Shown here: positions 7,568-34,579 of the stretch, in pieces
Layout of the letters: each line of letters begins with the position of its first letter
Position numbering within the stretch: the stretch's first letter is position 1
From: Myxococcaceae bacterium
Lineage (GTDB): Bacteria; Myxococcota; Myxococcia; Myxococcales; Myxococcaceae
Direction: 5' to 3'
DNA: 49,857 nt
Assembly: GCA_016926755.1 (NCBI GenBank)
Contig: JAFGNZ010000122.1
Location: forward strand, 1 to 49,857
Position numbers and translations under genes: made by a program
The notes under the pieces: generated by a model
The model's database searches: none
What the model saw: the letters and a program-made list of their open reading frames with translations, nothing else
Told to the model about the DNA's origin: nothing

Positions 7568-7655
7568 GGTCCTCTCCTTCGCGGGACGCGCCCTGCGCCC
7601 CTCACGCGAAGAAGAGATGCCTCAGCCCCGAGCGCCCGGAGCGCCCTCGAGCCCC

Positions 7656-7704
7656 AGCGGTCGCGCCATGCCCCCGAGCGGTCGCGCCATACCCCCGAGC
7701 GATC
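7656..7704. repeat. 21-bp tandem repeat, two copies plus partial third
   Basis: Two adjacent 21-base units (7656-7676 and 7677-7697) differ at one base (G/A near the middle) and are followed by the first bases of a third unit. They lie in the 309-base region between the ferritin-like gene and the next plus-strand gene, which otherwise shows no supported gene. Only two full units without spacers, so not CRISPR. The spacing is two helical turns, so an operator pair is possible, as is simple slippage. Confidence 0.75.
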
Positions 7705-7876
7705 CTCCCCCTCGCGAGCCCCTGTGTTCAGTGTCAGCGGATGCGGGCCCCGCTACGACGCCGCGCGCCACGGTGTCGATGGTGGACACACCCGACAAAG
7801 CACGATGAGGCCTCTTGCGCGCACTCGCCACGTGGGCACATTCTTCGTGGTGGCTACACCGATGGGAGGTGGGGCG

Positions 7877-8260
7877 ATGCTTGCCATCCATGAGAACGCG
7901 ACGGTGGAAGAGGCGAGCAGTGATCTGCTCGACTTCATCTTGAAGCCGGCCAACTGGCTCTCTGTCGAGCAGCAGGCGGAGGATCCGTCCGTACGCCCCG
8001 CCCAGAACGTGCTCTACCAGCGGCGCGTGGGCCCGCTGCGCATCTGCGCCTGCGCGGAGGTGTCCTCCTCGCTGGAGGTCTCCCTGCGCATCGCCTTCCG
8101 CGCGCCCGGGCTCACCCCGGTGAAGGCCGCCGATCACCTGGAGGCCTTCCTGCGCACCCGCCTGCCCCTGACGCCCAACTCCGAGTGGCAGGTGGAGGTG
8201 GACGAGCGCCGGTGGATCCACTTCGTGCGGCGCTACGCCAGCGCGCGCCTCCAGGCCTGA
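7877..8260 (+). CDS. Conserved-looking hypothetical protein, 127 aa
   Basis: A 127-residue soluble protein with no recognised domain. The ATG at 7877 follows GGAGG by 7-8 bases, and an in-frame ATG at 7862 overlaps that site, so 7877 is preferred. The sequence has an N-terminal helical part, then alternating strands (VLYQRRVGPLRICACAEV, LEVSLRIAFRAPG) and ends WIHFVRRYAS. No signal peptide or membrane segment. It converges with the cyclase gene with only 4 bases between stops. I do not recognise a family. Confidence 0.72.
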   Translation: MLAIHENATVEEASSDLLDFILKPANWLSVEQQAEDPSVRPAQNVLYQRRVGPLRICACAEVSSSLEVSLRIAFRAPGLTPVKAADHLEAFLRTRLPLTPNSEWQVEVDERRWIHFVRRYASARLQA

Positions 8261-8264
8261 GGCC

Positions 8265-9878
8265 TCACAGCAGCTTGTAGTAGCGCAGCGGCTGGCCCAC
8301 GTTCTTCACCGGCGTCTCCACGAGCTTGCTGAACCTCAGCCCCTGGACCCAGGACTCCTGGGACTCGCCCAGCGCCTGGCGCGCGCGCTCCATCAGCAGC
8401 GTCTCCCGGAAGCCGCCCAGCGACTGCAGCCGCGCCGTCTGGTTCATCCCCGTGGAGAAGGCGGTGTAGTTCCGGTTGGGCCCGAACAGGCCGCAGTGGG
8501 CGTGCGCCAGGTTCACCCCGACGGCCACGCCCAGGCCGGGCAGCTGCACCCGCTGGCAGAGCGCCAGCACCTCGTCCCGGGCGCTGAGGGAGGCGGTGTA
8601 CTCCTGGATGTCCAGCGCGGCGCGCATGGCCGCCTCGGCGCGCTGCACGCGGCTGGTCTCGAAGAAGGGCGGGCCGAACAGGCCGATGACGCAGTCCCCC
8701 ACCATCTTGTCGAAGACGCCGCCGTGCTCCCAGATGAAGTCCACCACGCGCGCGCTCCACTCATCCACGAAGCGGCCGATGCTCTTGGGGCTGTCGAAGC
8801 CGTGCTCGCAAATGCGGGTGAAGCTGTTGATGTCCGCGAAGAGGATGCCCAGCTCCTGATCCTGCGGCCGCAGGTGGTTGGCGTAGGCCGGATCCCTCAG
8901 CAGCTCGTCGATGGCGCGGTTGTGGAAGAACTGCGAGAGGTGGATGCGCTCGCGGTTGTAGTCCAGCAGCCGCTGGCTGAGCCCGGAGGCCAGCAGGCGG
9001 ACGATCTCCATCGTGTACGCCGAGAGGTCCTCGTCGCTCCAGAGGACGATCTTCCCCAGGTGCTCGCCGGAGGAGGCCCCGGAGATGAGCACCACCTCCG
9101 AGGTGCGCCCGCGCGCCTGGCCGAAGAGCTGCCGCGGCGAGCCTTCCACGCGGTTGAGCAGCTCCGGGCCATGCTTCTGGATGAGGCGATCCAGGTGTGG
9201 CCCGCGGCGCTCGGCGCTCTCGTACTCCAGGTGGCCGTGGCGCCACGTGCGGTAGTGCAGCACCTGGGGGCGCACCGCGTCCCGGTACAGCAGCAGGAAG
9301 CCGGGCAGCCGCACCCGCTGCGCCAGGGCCAGCACGGCCTGATCCATCCCCATCTCGAAGACGGGGTTGGCCAGGTGCTGGTTGCACTGGACGATGAGGT
9401 GGTGCTTCTCCACGGCGGTGTGGACCAGGCACAGCACGGTGTCGAGCAGCTCGGCCACCGTCTCCAGCATGCGGGCGATGCGCGCGGACTCCTGCACGCC
9501 CGTGAGCTCGCCCGGGAAGAGCATGCCGATGGAGCCCAGCCGCGTGCCCACCACGTCCAGGGCCTGGGTGACGAGCGTCCCCAGCTCATGGAGCCGCACC
9601 CCGGCGTTCTCCTCCAGCAACGGGCCGGGGTGGCGCTCTCCCCAGTCCCCCTCGGTCCAGGTCTGCTCGGCCAGCTCCTCGTTGCGCGTGGTGAGGGCGA
9701 TGGCGCGCGCGCCCGTCAGCGCCAGGACGCGCGGGAAGCACCGGTTGAACGTCTGGGTGAGGCTCTCGCGCTGCTTGATGCTCTCCTCCAGCAAATCATC
9801 CATGGCGCGCTGGAGGTGGCGCAGCGATCGGAGCTCCTCCAGCGAGGGCTCCGCGGGCAGCGGGTACGACGCTTTCAT
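8265..9878 (-). CDS. Class III adenylate/guanylate cyclase with N-terminal GAF-like sensor region
   Basis: A 537-residue cytoplasmic protein. Residues about 335-510 are a class III nucleotidyl cyclase catalytic domain: metal-binding D349 in LFADINSF and D395 in MVGDCVIG (46 residues apart, as expected), the loop GVAVGVNLAHAHCGLFG, and the late Asn/Arg motif MNQTARL. The usual GEVVVG is GLAHAHCG-like, a variant. The N-terminal 300 residues begin with a coiled coil (QRAMDDLLEESIKQRESL) and probably hold one or two GAF-like folds. No membrane segments. The gene follows the metallophosphoesterase gene by 11 bases on the same strand, so the two are probably one transcript. Whether it makes cAMP or cGMP is not clear. 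Confidence 0.88.
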   Translation of the reverse strand: MKASYPLPAEPSLEELRSLRHLQRAMDDLLEESIKQRESLTQTFNRCFPRVLALTGARAIALTTRNEELAEQTWTEGDWGERHPGPLLEENAGVRLHELGTLVTQALDVVGTRLGSIGMLFPGELTGVQESARIARMLETVAELLDTVLCLVHTAVEKHHLIVQCNQHLANPVFEMGMDQAVLALAQRVRLPGFLLLYRDAVRPQVLHYRTWRHGHLEYESAERRGPHLDRLIQKHGPELLNRVEGSPRQLFGQARGRTSEVVLISGASSGEHLGKIVLWSDEDLSAYTMEIVRLLASGLSQRLLDYNRERIHLSQFFHNRAIDELLRDPAYANHLRPQDQELGILFADINSFTRICEHGFDSPKSIGRFVDEWSARVVDFIWEHGGVFDKMVGDCVIGLFGPPFFETSRVQRAEAAMRAALDIQEYTASLSARDEVLALCQRVQLPGLGVAVGVNLAHAHCGLFGPNRNYTAFSTGMNQTARLQSLGGFRETLLMERARQALGESQESWVQGLRFSKLVETPVKNVGQPLRYYKLL

Positions 9879-27968: not shown

Positions 27969-29330
<1,362 letters not shown>

Positions 29331-29351
29331 GCCGAGGCAAATTGAGAGCGA

Positions 29352-29375
29352 GCAATCCCTCATAAGTGGGATTGC
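29352..29375 (+). terminator. Hairpin after radA
   Basis: A perfect 8-bp stem GCAATCCC/GGGATTGC with an 8-base loop starts 22 bases after the radA stop. A C-run rather than a T-run follows, so efficiency is uncertain. Its 3' arm overlaps the -35 candidate of the next gene. Confidence 0.55.
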
Positions 29376-29402
29376 AGCCCCCCCCCGCATCGCCTGTATA
29401 AC
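29372..29402 (+). promoter_or_regulatory. Candidate promoter of the Cys-rich lipoprotein gene
   Basis: TTGCAG (29372-29377) and TATAAC (29397-29402) resemble -35 and -10 boxes, but the 19-base spacing is long. The -10 is unusually AT-rich for this window and lies about 34 bases before the start codon. Confidence 0.4.
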
Positions 29403-29435
29403 CCACCACTCCTCACCTACCCATTGGAGGCTCAA

Positions 29436-29738
29436 GTGCGGCGACTTCTGTGTGTTGTGGCTCTGTGTACGATTGGGCTCACGGCTTGCGGTACGGATTA
29501 CACCGAAGCGAATGAAGCGAACGAAGCGTTCGAGACCAGCCGTCAGGGGCTCGCCTGCGTGACCGGCACCGGCGAATGCCCTGGCGACACGGTCTGCGCC
29601 TACTTCCAGGATGACCCATACGCGGAATACGAGGGGCTTTGCCGCCCTCCCTGCATCAACGGCACGTGCCAGAATTCCAACCAAATCTGCTGCACGCACC
29701 CCACCGGCCCGTCGTACTGCAACTGGGCCTGTCTATAG
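29436..29738 (+). CDS. Small Cys-rich predicted lipoprotein
   Basis: A 100-residue protein starting with GTG 29436, with GGAGG 5 bases upstream. Signal peptide with lipobox LTAC (Cys at 18). The mature part has ten further Cys, including an ICC pair, probably disulfide-bonded outside the cytoplasm. Near the N-terminus is the repeat EANEANEAF, encoded by three 9-base direct repeats (29505-29531). Base composition is lower in GC than radA. No enzyme motif. It lies between two copies of the radA 3' end and may have arrived by insertion. Possibly a surface or small-peptide-like lipoprotein; function unknown. Confidence 0.78.
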   Translation: MRRLLCVVALCTIGLTACGTDYTEANEANEAFETSRQGLACVTGTGECPGDTVCAYFQDDPYAEYEGLCRPPCINGTCQNSNQICCTHPTGPSYCNWACL

Positions 29739-29832
29739 CACTGTAACGAAGGCGGACCCGCTGGCCTGGATCCAGGTTGATCGAGGCCAGCCACTCAGGA
29801 TCAGTTCGAGCGCTCGTGGAGCCTCTGACATT

Positions 29833-29851
29833 GCGCTGAGCGCCATGTTCG
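29833..29851 (+). repeat. Direct repeat copy 2, downstream of the lipoprotein gene
   Basis: Exact 19-base copy of the radA 3' end, in the non-coding 29739-29934 interval, and again followed by a TGA in the same reading frame. The interval has no other supported gene and is AT-richer than its surroundings. The two copies bracket 507 bases including the Cys-rich lipoprotein gene. Confidence 0.85.
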
Positions 29852-29934
29852 CCTGAGCGCCGAAGACCGCCGCGGCGACTCCTGTCGGGACTATGCCCTG
29901 GGCGCGATCGGCGCCTACGAGTTGCTCCCGCGGC

Positions 29935-32181
29935 TCACGGCAGCACGGCCGGGAAGCGCAGCACCACCGCGTGAGGCGGTGCCCCATTGGTCACGCGAAG
30001 CGTGATGCGCGCATCTCCTCCCAGGCCGCGGCCGGTGAAGTAGGCCATCGAGCGCGCCGTTCCACTCACACCACTCTCGAGCGAGCCGGTCCCCAGGACC
30101 TGCCACGTTCCGTCGCGCAGGTTGAAGGTGTCGTAGTCGTAGCCAGCGATCGCGTTGGCATGGTCCAGCCTCAGCGCCGCGGCCCAGTCCATCATCAGCT
30201 CGGCGAACGGCATGCCCGTGTGGGCCTCGATGTTGGCGATCCCCGTGCTCGGGCCCTCCATCCAGTTCCGCCAGAAGTTGTCATGCCCCATGAGCTGCGC
30301 CACGCGCCACACGAACAGGAAGTTGTAGCCATAGGTGCAGATGCGCTCTCCGTACTGGCTCGGCTGCTCCGGGTACACGACGCGGAAGGCGTGCGGAGTG
30401 GCCAGGCAATTGCTCGCATAGGGCTGCACCAGCTGCACCTCGGTGCCGAGCCCCGCCAGCTGCTGGGCCGCCATGGCGCTGGCCTCTTCGATCCACGGCT
30501 CCTCCGAGGACGTGCTCGATGCCAGGCGGCGGCCCACCGCGATCAGGTGCTTGAGCTCGTGCACCATGACGGAGGGCATGAGCTTGCCGAAGTACTCGGC
30601 GCGCGGCACGCCCGAGCTGCCCGGGCTGGCCGCGTAGAAGATGTCACCCTCGTTGCTGCGCTTGCCCCACCACCGCACCGTGTCGCTGTCACTGAAGAAG
30701 TCGACCGGGTGCACGTAGCCGTACAGGTTGTCCTGGCCGACCCGGCGGCTGAAGACGATGATGATCTTCTCGTTGGCATCGAGGTCGGCGACCTCTCCGA
30801 AGTAGCGCAGATCCGTCGGCATGACCTTGCTCTCGAAGTCGGCCATGAGGCCTTGCAGCTCGCCCGGGCCGAGCTCCGCCACATCCTCGTTCTGCACGAA
30901 CCAGTAGGCATGCTCACTCACGCTCTTGACCGTGGCGGTGATGCGCTCCTGCTGGGAGTCCACCCCCACCCAGAAGTCGCAGACCTTGACGTCCACGGTG
31001 TAGGGCCCCGGGCAGTTCCTGAAGGCCGCCTGGACGGCCTGGGCCGTGCCCTTGGCCATCAGCGGCTGGACTCCCGCGCGCCGCAGCGTCTCCACTCCCT
31101 GCTGCCCCTGCTCCAAGTGCCTCAGGTGAGCCTCGCGGCGCGCCAGGGCCTCCTCTCGGGCGCTGGCCTGGACGAGCTCCGCCTCCCGTGGCGACGGTGC
31201 GTCAGGAGGCAGCAGCCCCTGCGCTGACACGCCGGTGGTGCTGAGGGTGAAGTCCAGCCCATCCGCCGAGGGGTACTGGCTGGCGTGCACCGGGATGACG
31301 ACCACGCGCTCGGCGATGGACAGGCCCTGGAGGGTGACGGTGGCCGAGCCGTCGACGAAGTCCGCGGGGCGCACGAACACCACGCCCGGCGGCTGGGGCC
31401 TGCCGCCCTTCAGCCTCAGCGGTACGTTCGCGTTCTCCAGCGGCGGGGCCACCACCGCCGCCTCGAGGCCCCCCGTCGAGTAGACCCCCTCATAGTCGCC
31501 GGTGTCCGCCTGGGTGTTTCCGTTGAGATCCTTGAAGGCGCTGAGGAGGTACTGGCCTGGAGTGAGCCCCTCGAAGCTGAACATGCCGCTGGCGCCAGTG
31601 CCCCGGACGACCACCTGCCGGGTGCTGGCGTGGCCTGGAGCGCACTGGCCGTTGCTCACGAAGCATGCCGTCACCTGCGTGCCGTCGACATCGCCACCGG
31701 CGGGCGCGGACACCTTGCCGCTGATGAAGTTGCTCGCGGTGAGCACCACCGACAGGGTGAAGTTGATCCCGCGCATCGGCGGCCTGAGGTACAGCGGGCT
31801 CTGCCGGCCGCCGTAGATGCCGTCGTAGTCGTCGGTGTCGACCACGCCGTTGGCGTTGTTGTCCTTGGAGGCCATGAGCACATACGCGCCCGTAGCCAGG
31901 CCCTCCACGAGGAACTCGGCGCTCGCGCCCTCCCCCTGGACGACCACGGACCGCGTGTTGGGAGACTCGAGGTCGCACTGGCTGTCCACGGTGAAGCAGG
32001 CCGTGACCTTCGTTCCCGCGACGGCGCCACCGTTGGGGACCGTCACCGCCCCGCTGAGTGTCCCCGGCGCCAGCGGGTTGGGATCGACAGGCTTCGGCTC
32101 GTCGTCGTCCTTCCCCGGACACGCGGCGAGAGTCAACACCACCAGGACCCCTGGCACCCACCGCACGGCCCGCTGACGCAT
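29935..32181 (-). CDS. Hyicolysin-like (M30) metallopeptidase lipoprotein with two calcium-loop domains
   Basis: A 748-residue lipoprotein (start 32181, GGGGAG 7-8 bases upstream; lipobox LAAC). After the anchor come two homologous domains of about 85 residues (about 35-120 and 135-220) sharing GTxVTACF and ending in EF-hand-like loops, DNNANGVVDTDDYDGIYG and DLNGNTQADTGDYEGVYS. A middle region with a coiled coil follows (about 310-360). The catalytic part holds HELKH at 541-545 (HExxH zinc motif) and EEPWIEEASA about 20 residues on, matching the M30 hyicolysin type. The C-terminus is beta-rich. Probably a surface or secreted protease stabilised by calcium; substrates unknown. Confidence 0.82.
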   Translation of the reverse strand: MRQRAVRWVPGVLVVLTLAACPGKDDDEPKPVDPNPLAPGTLSGAVTVPNGGAVAGTKVTACFTVDSQCDLESPNTRSVVVQGEGASAEFLVEGLATGAYVLMASKDNNANGVVDTDDYDGIYGGRQSPLYLRPPMRGINFTLSVVLTASNFISGKVSAPAGGDVDGTQVTACFVSNGQCAPGHASTRQVVVRGTGASGMFSFEGLTPGQYLLSAFKDLNGNTQADTGDYEGVYSTGGLEAAVVAPPLENANVPLRLKGGRPQPPGVVFVRPADFVDGSATVTLQGLSIAERVVVIPVHASQYPSADGLDFTLSTTGVSAQGLLPPDAPSPREAELVQASAREEALARREAHLRHLEQGQQGVETLRRAGVQPLMAKGTAQAVQAAFRNCPGPYTVDVKVCDFWVGVDSQQERITATVKSVSEHAYWFVQNEDVAELGPGELQGLMADFESKVMPTDLRYFGEVADLDANEKIIIVFSRRVGQDNLYGYVHPVDFFSDSDTVRWWGKRSNEGDIFYAASPGSSGVPRAEYFGKLMPSVMVHELKHLIAVGRRLASSTSSEEPWIEEASAMAAQQLAGLGTEVQLVQPYASNCLATPHAFRVVYPEQPSQYGERICTYGYNFLFVWRVAQLMGHDNFWRNWMEGPSTGIANIEAHTGMPFAELMMDWAAALRLDHANAIAGYDYDTFNLRDGTWQVLGTGSLESGVSGTARSMAYFTGRGLGGDARITLRVTNGAPPHAVVLRFPAVLP

Positions 32182-32366
32182 CGCTCGCTCCCCTGGAAGC
32201 CGTGGGGGGCGGACCACGCTCCTCGCGCCTCGCGGCAGGAGCACGCCCTTCCCAGGCGAGCGCGATACTACTCAGGCTCCGGCGAGGGTGTCAGCCCGCC
32301 GCCCTGGCCTGACGGTGCGCGTGGGAGAGGGCCTCCTGGGCACTCGGGGCCGTGTCGCGGCTGCCC

Positions 32367-34457
32367 TCATCCGCCCTCCGCGGGAGTGGGTGGTTGCGAT
32401 GCGGGGGGATTCAGCAGGGCCTTCGCGGCCTCCACCGCGGCATGTGTCCCTGCCAGCGCGAGGAGATCCCCCGCCTTGAGCACCTCCTGGGCCGTGGGCA
32501 CGGAGACGTCCGCCCCCTCCCGGTGGATGGCCAGGACGGTCGCCCCCGTCAGCCCGCGGAGGTTCAACGCCGCGAGCGTCTTCCCTACCGCGGGGCTCGT
32601 CTCCTCGAGTTGCACAGGCGTGGGCGCACCGAGGCCGGGGAGCAGCCCGCGGACCTGCTCCAGCTCTCCATGCTCGGCGCCCGGGGCCTTCGCGTGTGAC
32701 TGGGTGGCGAGGGCCTCCACGATGACCTGTGCGCCAGCCCGGACGTGCCCCTGCAGATTCCTGGCGCTGCGCCAGAAGGCAATGCCCAGCACGACCAGGA
32801 GCGCCAGCACGAGCAGCGGCGCCGTGAAGCCGCGGACGAAGGGCTGCGTGACCGCGATCACCGGAGTCCCCACGAGGAGGACGATGATCACCTGCAGCGT
32901 GAGGACGAGGACGTGCCGAGGGGCCGCCGCCAGGTCCATCCTCCCCTCCGCCCGGAGCGGGAGCGCCACCAGCGACAGCGTCCCCGCGAGGCGACGCGCG
33001 ACCTGGACGATGCCCAGGAGGAACGGCAGCGCGAGGAGGATGGCGCCTCCGATGATGAGCTTCTCCGCCAGCCCCTGGCTGACGCCCGCCGCGTCCTCCA
33101 GGAGCAGGGAGATCTTCTCGAGCGAGAGGGAGGTGCCCACCACCAGCGCCACGAGCAGCGCCGCGTCGATGAGCAGCTGCCCCACGAGCCGCCGGATGCT
33201 GGCGCCGAGCGTGTGCCGCCGGGGGGCCTCTCGGAGCTGCTCGACCCAGCTCCCGTACAGCGTGGCGAACGTCTGGAGAGGCTTGGGCAGCTTCCGGTCC
33301 ACGAAGCTCGCCACGGGGCCCGCGGCGCGGATGAGCATGGGCGTGGTCAGCGTGGTGATGGCCGAGACCGCCACCGCGATGGGATAGAGGAACTCCCCGG
33401 TCGCCTTCAGCGACAGCCCCAGGCTCGCGATGATGAACGAGAACTCGCCGATCTGCGCCAGGCTCATCCCCGCCTGCACGGAGGTGCGCGTCCCGTTGCC
33501 GGTGAGGAAGGCGCCCACGGAGACGCTGATGACCTTGCCGAGGACGACCACGACCGTGAACACCAGGATGGCGACCCAGTAGCGCGCGATGATCGCCGGG
33601 TCGATGAGCATCCCCACGGACACGAAGAAGATGGCCGCGAAGATGTCCTTCACGGGCTGGACGAGGTGCTCCACCACCTTCTCCTCTCCGGACTCCGCGA
33701 CGAGCGAGCCGGCCAGGAAGGCGCCCAGCGCCACCGAGTACCCAAACGCCTGGGCCAGCAGCGCGATCGCGAAGCACACGCCGACGCTGGCCACCAGCGT
33801 CGTCTCCGGGCGGTTGAGCCGGATGACCGCGCGGATGGCTCGGGGGACAATCAGCAGCCCGATCGCGACCAGCCCGACGAGGAACGCCAGGAGGCGGCCG
33901 AGGGTGAGCGCCAGGTCTCCGGCCGAGAGGCCGCTCCCCGTCGAGATGCCCGTCAGCATCGCCATCAGCAGAATCGCGATGAGATCCTCGACGATGAGCA
34001 CGCCGACGACGAGCTCGCGGAGCTTTCCGCGGATCCCCTGCTCGTCGAACGCCTTGGCGATGATCGTCGTGCTGGAGATGGCGATGAGCGCCCCCGCGAA
34101 GATGCTCTCCAGCGGGGTCCACCCGAAGGCGCGGCCCACCACGAAGCCGAGCCACACCATGACGCTGCACTGGATGACGGCCGTGAGGCCCGCCGTGGGC
34201 CCCACGGCGAACAGCTTGCGCAGGCTGAACTCCAGCCCGAGTGAGAACATGAGGAGGATGACGCCCAGCTCCGAGAGCACCTGGACGGTGCCCGGGTCCG
34301 CGATGAGCGGGATGGGCACGTAGGGGCCGACGATGAGGCCAGCGAGGATGTAGCCGAGGACGACAGGCTGGCGCAGCCGCTGGAACAACACCGTCGTCAC
34401 CGCGGCGACGCACAGGACCACCGTGATGGCCTTCAAGAACTCGTGCGCGGTGTGCAT
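32367..34457 (-). CDS. CPA2-type cation/proton antiporter with extra membrane block and TrkA-C domain
   Basis: A 696-residue inner-membrane antiporter. Residues about 1-385 form a CPA2 (KefB/C-like) domain with about 12 helices: RQPVVLGYILAGLIVGP, SLGLEFSLRKL, SVALGAFLAGSLVAESG, FFVSVGMLIDPA, AGMSLAQIGEFSFIIASLG. A further block of about four helices (about 410-575) follows, then a C-terminal TrkA_C domain (about 590-690) with LRGLTGATVLAIHREGADV. There is no TrkA_N (NAD-binding) domain. Start 34457 is used; ATG 34487 is also possible. It probably exchanges K+ or Na+ for H+; the next gene upstream is a CPA1 antiporter in the same direction. Confidence 0.85.
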   Translation of the reverse strand: MHTAHEFLKAITVVLCVAAVTTVLFQRLRQPVVLGYILAGLIVGPYVPIPLIADPGTVQVLSELGVILLMFSLGLEFSLRKLFAVGPTAGLTAVIQCSVMVWLGFVVGRAFGWTPLESIFAGALIAISSTTIIAKAFDEQGIRGKLRELVVGVLIVEDLIAILLMAMLTGISTGSGLSAGDLALTLGRLLAFLVGLVAIGLLIVPRAIRAVIRLNRPETTLVASVGVCFAIALLAQAFGYSVALGAFLAGSLVAESGEEKVVEHLVQPVKDIFAAIFFVSVGMLIDPAIIARYWVAILVFTVVVVLGKVISVSVGAFLTGNGTRTSVQAGMSLAQIGEFSFIIASLGLSLKATGEFLYPIAVAVSAITTLTTPMLIRAAGPVASFVDRKLPKPLQTFATLYGSWVEQLREAPRRHTLGASIRRLVGQLLIDAALLVALVVGTSLSLEKISLLLEDAAGVSQGLAEKLIIGGAILLALPFLLGIVQVARRLAGTLSLVALPLRAEGRMDLAAAPRHVLVLTLQVIIVLLVGTPVIAVTQPFVRGFTAPLLVLALLVVLGIAFWRSARNLQGHVRAGAQVIVEALATQSHAKAPGAEHGELEQVRGLLPGLGAPTPVQLEETSPAVGKTLAALNLRGLTGATVLAIHREGADVSVPTAQEVLKAGDLLALAGTHAAVEAAKALLNPPASQPPTPAEGG

Positions 34458-34579
34458 GGATTCACCCCATGAGGTGAGGATGGGCATGCGACGGGGCAGT
34501 CCCCATCGCTGAGGTGGGAGTCGAAAGTCGGGCCAGCATCCTTACCCGTAAAGCGATTCCGACGCCTGCCGCGCGCGCC

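Follow-up and report, generated by a model that had tools for sequence, protein, structure and literature searches.

A directly repeated radA tail flanking a small cysteine-rich lipoprotein gene in a Myxococcaceae genome, most likely the scar of one small rearrangement

Why does the 3' end of radA occur a second time about half a kilobase downstream, beyond a small lipoprotein gene, and does such an arrangement mark an integrated element? The stretch of DNA analyzed (hereafter the window, 49,857 nucleotides) corresponds to contig C201 of a draft genome that totals 9.59 Mb in 409 contigs. A repeat search of the window gave a 26-bp direct repeat with a spacing of 526 (Table 1). The near copy comprises the last 21 coding bases of radA, the TGA stop codon and two further bases (GC). 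The copies are identical over the 19 bases from 29307 to 29325 and differ once, in the last codon (GAC in radA, GCC in the far copy), after which TGA and GC agree again. The original prediction, a 19-bp copy of the radA tail 526 bp downstream that again ran into TGA, was right as to the repeat, its spacing and its stop codon, and the likeness reaches 25 of 26 bases over 26 bp; the 19 exact bases are not the last coding bases of radA, as two more follow, one of them the mismatch. Judged by sequence, the near copy looks like the original, because its last codon agrees with the radA ends of relatives and that of the far copy does not.

Table 1. Positions of the radA tail copies, the lipoprotein module and the neighboring genes in the window
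Feature	Position	Strand	Evidence
radA (sms), 453 aa, complete	27969..29330	+	TIGR00416 sms, 595.6 bits (cut-off 403)
Near repeat copy, 26 bp (end of radA with its stop codon plus 2 bases)	29307..29332	+	Agrees with radA ends of relatives
Module (leader, gene and about 54 bases past the stop)	29368..29792	+	Aligns at the DNA level with lipoprotein loci elsewhere
Probable ribosome-binding site (GGAGG) of the lipoprotein gene	29426..29430	+	TTGGAGG conserved before the start in relatives
Small Cys-rich lipoprotein gene, 100 aa, probable GTG start; no family match in Pfam or NCBIfam	29436..29738	+	Homologues, lipobox
Far copy of the 26-bp repeat, 25/26 identical	29833..29858	+	Repeat and mismatch searches
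Large lipoprotein-like protein	29935..32244	-	DUF2141 and carboxypeptidase-regulatory-like Pfam matches, HELKH motif
Cation:proton antiporter (CPA2-like) gene	32367..34487	-	PF00999 and TrkA_C

The 26-bp block was searched at up to 3 mismatches, and neither the window (expectation from 100 shuffles, 0) nor the whole 9.6-Mb draft genome contained a third place. A dispersed repeat was rejected on the grounds that the block has just two places in the genome. Across 39 genomes the window's 26-mer was matched in 8 at the same threshold: at two places in its own genome, at one place, in radA, in each of six others, and at a single 3-mismatch place outside radA in genome G017.

The last 60 bases of radA were scored against the next 3 kb (ungapped, +1/-2), giving a score of 23 where the best of 500 dinucleotide shuffles was 14; whole radA against a 603-bp stretch scored 21 (best of 200 shuffles, 15). 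A Gumbel fit extrapolated to p ~1e-7 for the score of 23, but shuffles flatter real sequence, and 414 gene ends were therefore compared with their own next 3 kb. These ends were called by a simple GC rule in 59 loci of related or antiporter-bearing genomes and from the window, and ends with <1 kb behind them were skipped. Scores of at least 20 were reached by 6/414, radA included. The others were a C-terminal tail common to two genes (locus L108), a pair of similar gene ends (L042), a dispersed repeat (L105) and, judged by position, two close repeats (L127 and L131); the radA case was the only one of the six to be a bare block with no longer likeness around it. Elsewhere in the window one direct repeat scored equally high, a near-tandem pair at 7652/7673 (two 29-bp copies, 21 bp apart and 93% identical, spanning 7652-7701). 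At L108, two genes, at 7615-9255 and about 2.3 kb past its end, have a C-terminal tail that is nearly identical in DNA (GVLGWWLLAGLVWKPRRARR), perhaps a sorting tail that conversion has kept similar. A repeated gene tail by itself, then, does not make an island, and some caution is due.

The DNA between the copies has a GC content of 60.6% (29333-29832), compared with 71.0% for radA and 70.6% for the window, and the small Cys-rich lipoprotein gene that had been proposed in this lower-GC interval is real by its homologues. Its start is most likely GTG 29436 and not TTG 29424; the former was preferred because TTGGAGG is conserved ahead of the ATG of relatives, where it appears as L-E in extended frames. 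The predicted protein has the lipobox LTAC, and past the lipidated Cys it has ten more. Homologues were found, patchily, in 28 of the 96 family genomes (its own included) and 6 of 26 genera. G002 is the only other member of the genus with a homologue (42%, E 1.7e-4); the window's own genome has a second, weak one on contig C67. Pairwise DNA alignments of the module ran from 29368 to 29774 with G106 and from 29368 to 29792 with G100, were shorter with G096 and G062, and with G086 extended to 29286 through weak likeness. Since homology begins at 29368 and ends by 29792, 35 and 40 bases lie between the module and the two copies. The GC content of the module (61.5%) is the lowest among 30 lipoprotein loci. 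In the lipoprotein tree the window's copy groups with that of G100 at 86/79, below the 95/80 mark, and 15 of the 25 inner branches are open.

Flanks were compared across the same 30 loci. Those of the genus labelled g43 often have flanks in common, and the window's locus has flanks in common with none of the other loci compared. For flanking repeats the window's own locus was set aside, and L064, whose two test flanks overlap close to a contig end, was excluded. None of the 28 remaining loci had comparable repeats (best scores 9-13, against 23 in the window; shuffle maxima 12-16), and only L057 exceeded its shuffle maximum, by one point (13 vs 12). A lipoprotein family marked by flanking repeats was rejected accordingly, 27/28 other loci lying within their shuffle maxima. 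Among 26 loci tested for a gene end like the radA tail upstream of the lipoprotein gene, the sister genomes G086 and G034 gave loose likenesses, with scores of 18.5 (0/200 shuffles, best 18) and 17.0 (3/200), which were taken as chance.

A lipoprotein pattern search of genome contigs returned 68 matches with no relative among them. Phages, plasmids and viral contigs likewise held no relative (three stretches fitted a pattern and were not relatives), and known phage, plasmid or viral cargo was rejected on that basis. A known RNA element was rejected as well, there being no Rfam match at gathering thresholds over 29200-30000, and the same span held no consensus match to a sigma-70-type promoter or intrinsic terminator. 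For the protein-like frame past the far copy the best match outside its own genome had E 0.06, and no Pfam match was found. Five inverted pairs were found in 28800-30400 and none of them flanks the interval on both sides, which leaves an insertion sequence or MITE without the terminal inverted repeats by which it would be recognized.

The position behind radA was compared between species. The radA protein is 95-96% identical to those of genus mates; the genus includes G005 and G006. The antiporter gene is conserved, convergent with radA and syntenic in G001-G006 and G020, and forms the right border of a gap (29331-32366 in the window) of which the contents differ between species. Over the matching gaps covered (L032-L038), the length ranged from 12 bp to about 15.8 kb. 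The shortest, 12 bp between the stop codons of radA and the antiporter gene, is that of G002, which is the nearest relative by downstream DNA identity among those compared (87% over 34.6-41.2 kb). A gap of about 2.6 kb with one 855-861-aa gene was found in G001, G003, G004 and G005, and gaps of about 8.3 kb and 15.8 kb in G006 and G020, respectively. In the window, the gene for the large lipoprotein-like protein lies beyond the interval and bounds the gap there. Strong relatives of this protein were found only in G020, G062, G033 and G013 among the 96 genomes, and a 55% relative adjoins the antiporter gene of G020. By eye its HELKH motif appears zinc-peptidase-like; no peptidase family was matched in Pfam or NCBIfam.

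A second radA tail was found in none of 14 relatives up to 18 kb past radA, where other genes lie. Their best matches, of 28 bases, were 17-20 forward and 16-19 on the other strand, as against 25 in the window's own genome. The lipoprotein gene is absent from the same place in the relatives examined, and none was seen to have the same neighborhood minus just the 526-bp unit. The comparison downstream of radA that had been proposed as a check for an empty site therefore came out in part: relatives do have a single tail, but G002 is not a clean empty site because the next gene is also missing there. Relatives with the same layout, which would have spoken against an insertion, were not encountered, the interval being specific to its own genome among the relatives examined.

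The explanation we favor, and to which we attach about an even chance, is that a lipoprotein module became joined into a gap that tolerates change and that repair or illegitimate recombination produced the second tail, once. On this view genes can be gained and lost between radA and the antiporter gene; directly behind radA, this lineage would have acquired some half a kilobase of DNA that brought the lipoprotein gene with its own leader; and the far 26-bp copy would be a by-product of the joining event. We infer that the gain of the gene and the second tail arose together, and also that a repair route produced the latter. Either the radA tail may have been copied into the far junction by end joining or template-switch repair, or incoming DNA that already had a short radA tail may have recombined with the chromosomal radA. 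Two Ku homologues above cut-off were found in the window's own genome, and G002 and G020 have two as well; these homologues indicate an end-joining capability and are not proof of the route. G005 has a similarly variable gap and no Ku, so Ku is unnecessary for gap change.

The result that speaks most against this origin is the likeness that the far copy also bears to the 5' end of an alpha/beta-hydrolase gene. The far copy could then be a remnant of such a gene start (MRAMFAGAPK near the start), or a coincidence of preferred codons, and we regard this pair of explanations as unlikely yet deserving of weight. Positions 29833-29865 match the hydrolase gene start at 29/33 bases in G085, G034 and G062, and at 88% in G002; the single mismatch of the far copy to radA agrees with the hydrolase gene, as does ATCAGTTC upstream of the far copy; and with the 26-bp core fixed, the alignment scored 30, above all 500 flank shuffles (best 29). 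Against these stand the better fit of radA to the 26-bp block (25 vs 22 of 26, by eye), the abrupt end of the likeness directly behind 29865 with only weak likeness upstream, and the unrelated matches at E 0.001-0.01 that other parts of this flank had in the 96-genome scan from which the hydrolase match came. No hydrolase variant closer to the far copy was found in the 96 genomes. For plain coincidence it may be said that the exact 19-mer also occurs within a reading frame of unrelated viral contigs, and against it that the shuffle-based p of about 1e-7 is small, even if shuffles flatter real sequence. The hydrolase itself is whole in G062; at L157 (1950-2150) and L159 (1850-2100) the match is limited to the first 28 (G034) or 37 (G002) residues, and the G034 and G002 genes look like broken copies for that reason.

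Site-specific insertion, the reading first offered for this locus, supposes that the radA 3' end is an attachment site and that an element decayed to attL, lipoprotein gene and attR, or that an integrase elsewhere moved the passenger. A direct repeat of a gene 3' end at both sides, identical at 25/26 bases, is what such an event would leave, and its length lies within the 8-60 bp given for repeats of this kind in the available text of PMC5704250. If the two copies recombined, radA would stay complete and end in Ala instead of Asp; the genome also has ten PF00589 matches. All ten are on other contigs, so that the observation of no integrase gene in the interval can be extended, for tyrosine integrases, to the whole contig of the window. 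The integrase search covered this class (PF00589) only. In seven relatives the nearest PF00589 match on the radA contig was about 89 kb off (G002) and below cut-off; the contig of G006 begins 739 bases ahead of radA, so that in G006 the search covered one side of the gene. Around the radA end, 36 bases were weakly matched by 32 phage records, two of them under genes annotated as integrase, but these two matches (83%, E 5) are at chance level. As a possible attP, two viral contigs with the exact 19-mer were rejected, the match lying inside an open frame; their flanks are identical to each other over 60 bases on each side. Among the listed titles and abstract openings on radA as an integration site, the term 'radA gene' did not occur. 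With no tyrosine integrase near, no second tail in the 14 relatives, no comparable repeats beside the lipoprotein homologues at the 28 loci tested and no lipoprotein relative among phage, plasmid and viral sequences, the att-like reading is not upheld, and we think it improbable. Its boldest form, in which a half-kilobase passenger lacks a recombinase and a resident enzyme of that kind moves it in trans, with the radA 3' end as attachment site, appears very improbable.

Slipped duplication, the other origin suggested initially, was rejected because the interval is no second copy of adjoining DNA: it resembles no adjoining unit, and only the 26-bp block and a 14-bp match are repeated. A decayed form can be conceived, in which a tandem duplication ran from the radA tail into the lipoprotein start and its second copy was later mostly deleted. 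The lipoprotein start (29438-29451) does match 29872-29885, past the far tail, at 13/14 bases, but 14-bp matches in two copies are frequently fortuitous in GC-rich DNA, the spacing past the tail differs (106 vs 14 bp) and the rest of the unit is gone; this history seems very unlikely. Slighter still is the chance of an assembly error that misjoined two pieces at a short common sequence, for although this is one assembly of a draft genome in many contigs, both copies are well inside a 49.9-kb contig, and 26 bp is short for assemblers.

The locus was also compared with known systems. A CIME is a decayed element that keeps attL and attR and has no integrase, according to the available text of PMC5704250, which also gives the repeat lengths quoted above. 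The locus resembles an integrative element or CIME so described in the direct repetition of the 3' end of a conserved gene at both sides with no integrase inside, and differs in measuring about half a kilobase and in having no intact relative and no integrase near the radA of relatives. Genomic islands of the Islander type, which in the accessible part of PMC4383910 use tRNA/tmRNA genes as targets and require an integrase gene, likewise show a gene end and a displaced fragment of the same gene further downstream; here the target is a protein gene and there is no integrase. Templated insertion at a repaired break is similar in placing a single short copy of neighboring sequence at a junction, and the host has Ku. 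It differs in that, as far as the sources seen go, it is known from eukaryotic work, including mostly 5-34-bp inverted copies in yeast, whereas the copy here is direct and the route a proposed one. Gain of short genes in a variable gap is like the present case in that gap contents differ between related species, and unlike it in that a copy of the neighbor gene's tail occurs only here.

Taken together, the repeat is most likely the scar of one small rearrangement and not a new mobile element. If the favored origin, a lipoprotein module joined into the gap with the second tail as its by-product, is true, the second radA tail would be a readable scar of a small lipoprotein gene entering a new place in a myxobacterial chromosome, and the entry would have occurred without visible transposon machinery, at a gap that differs between related species.
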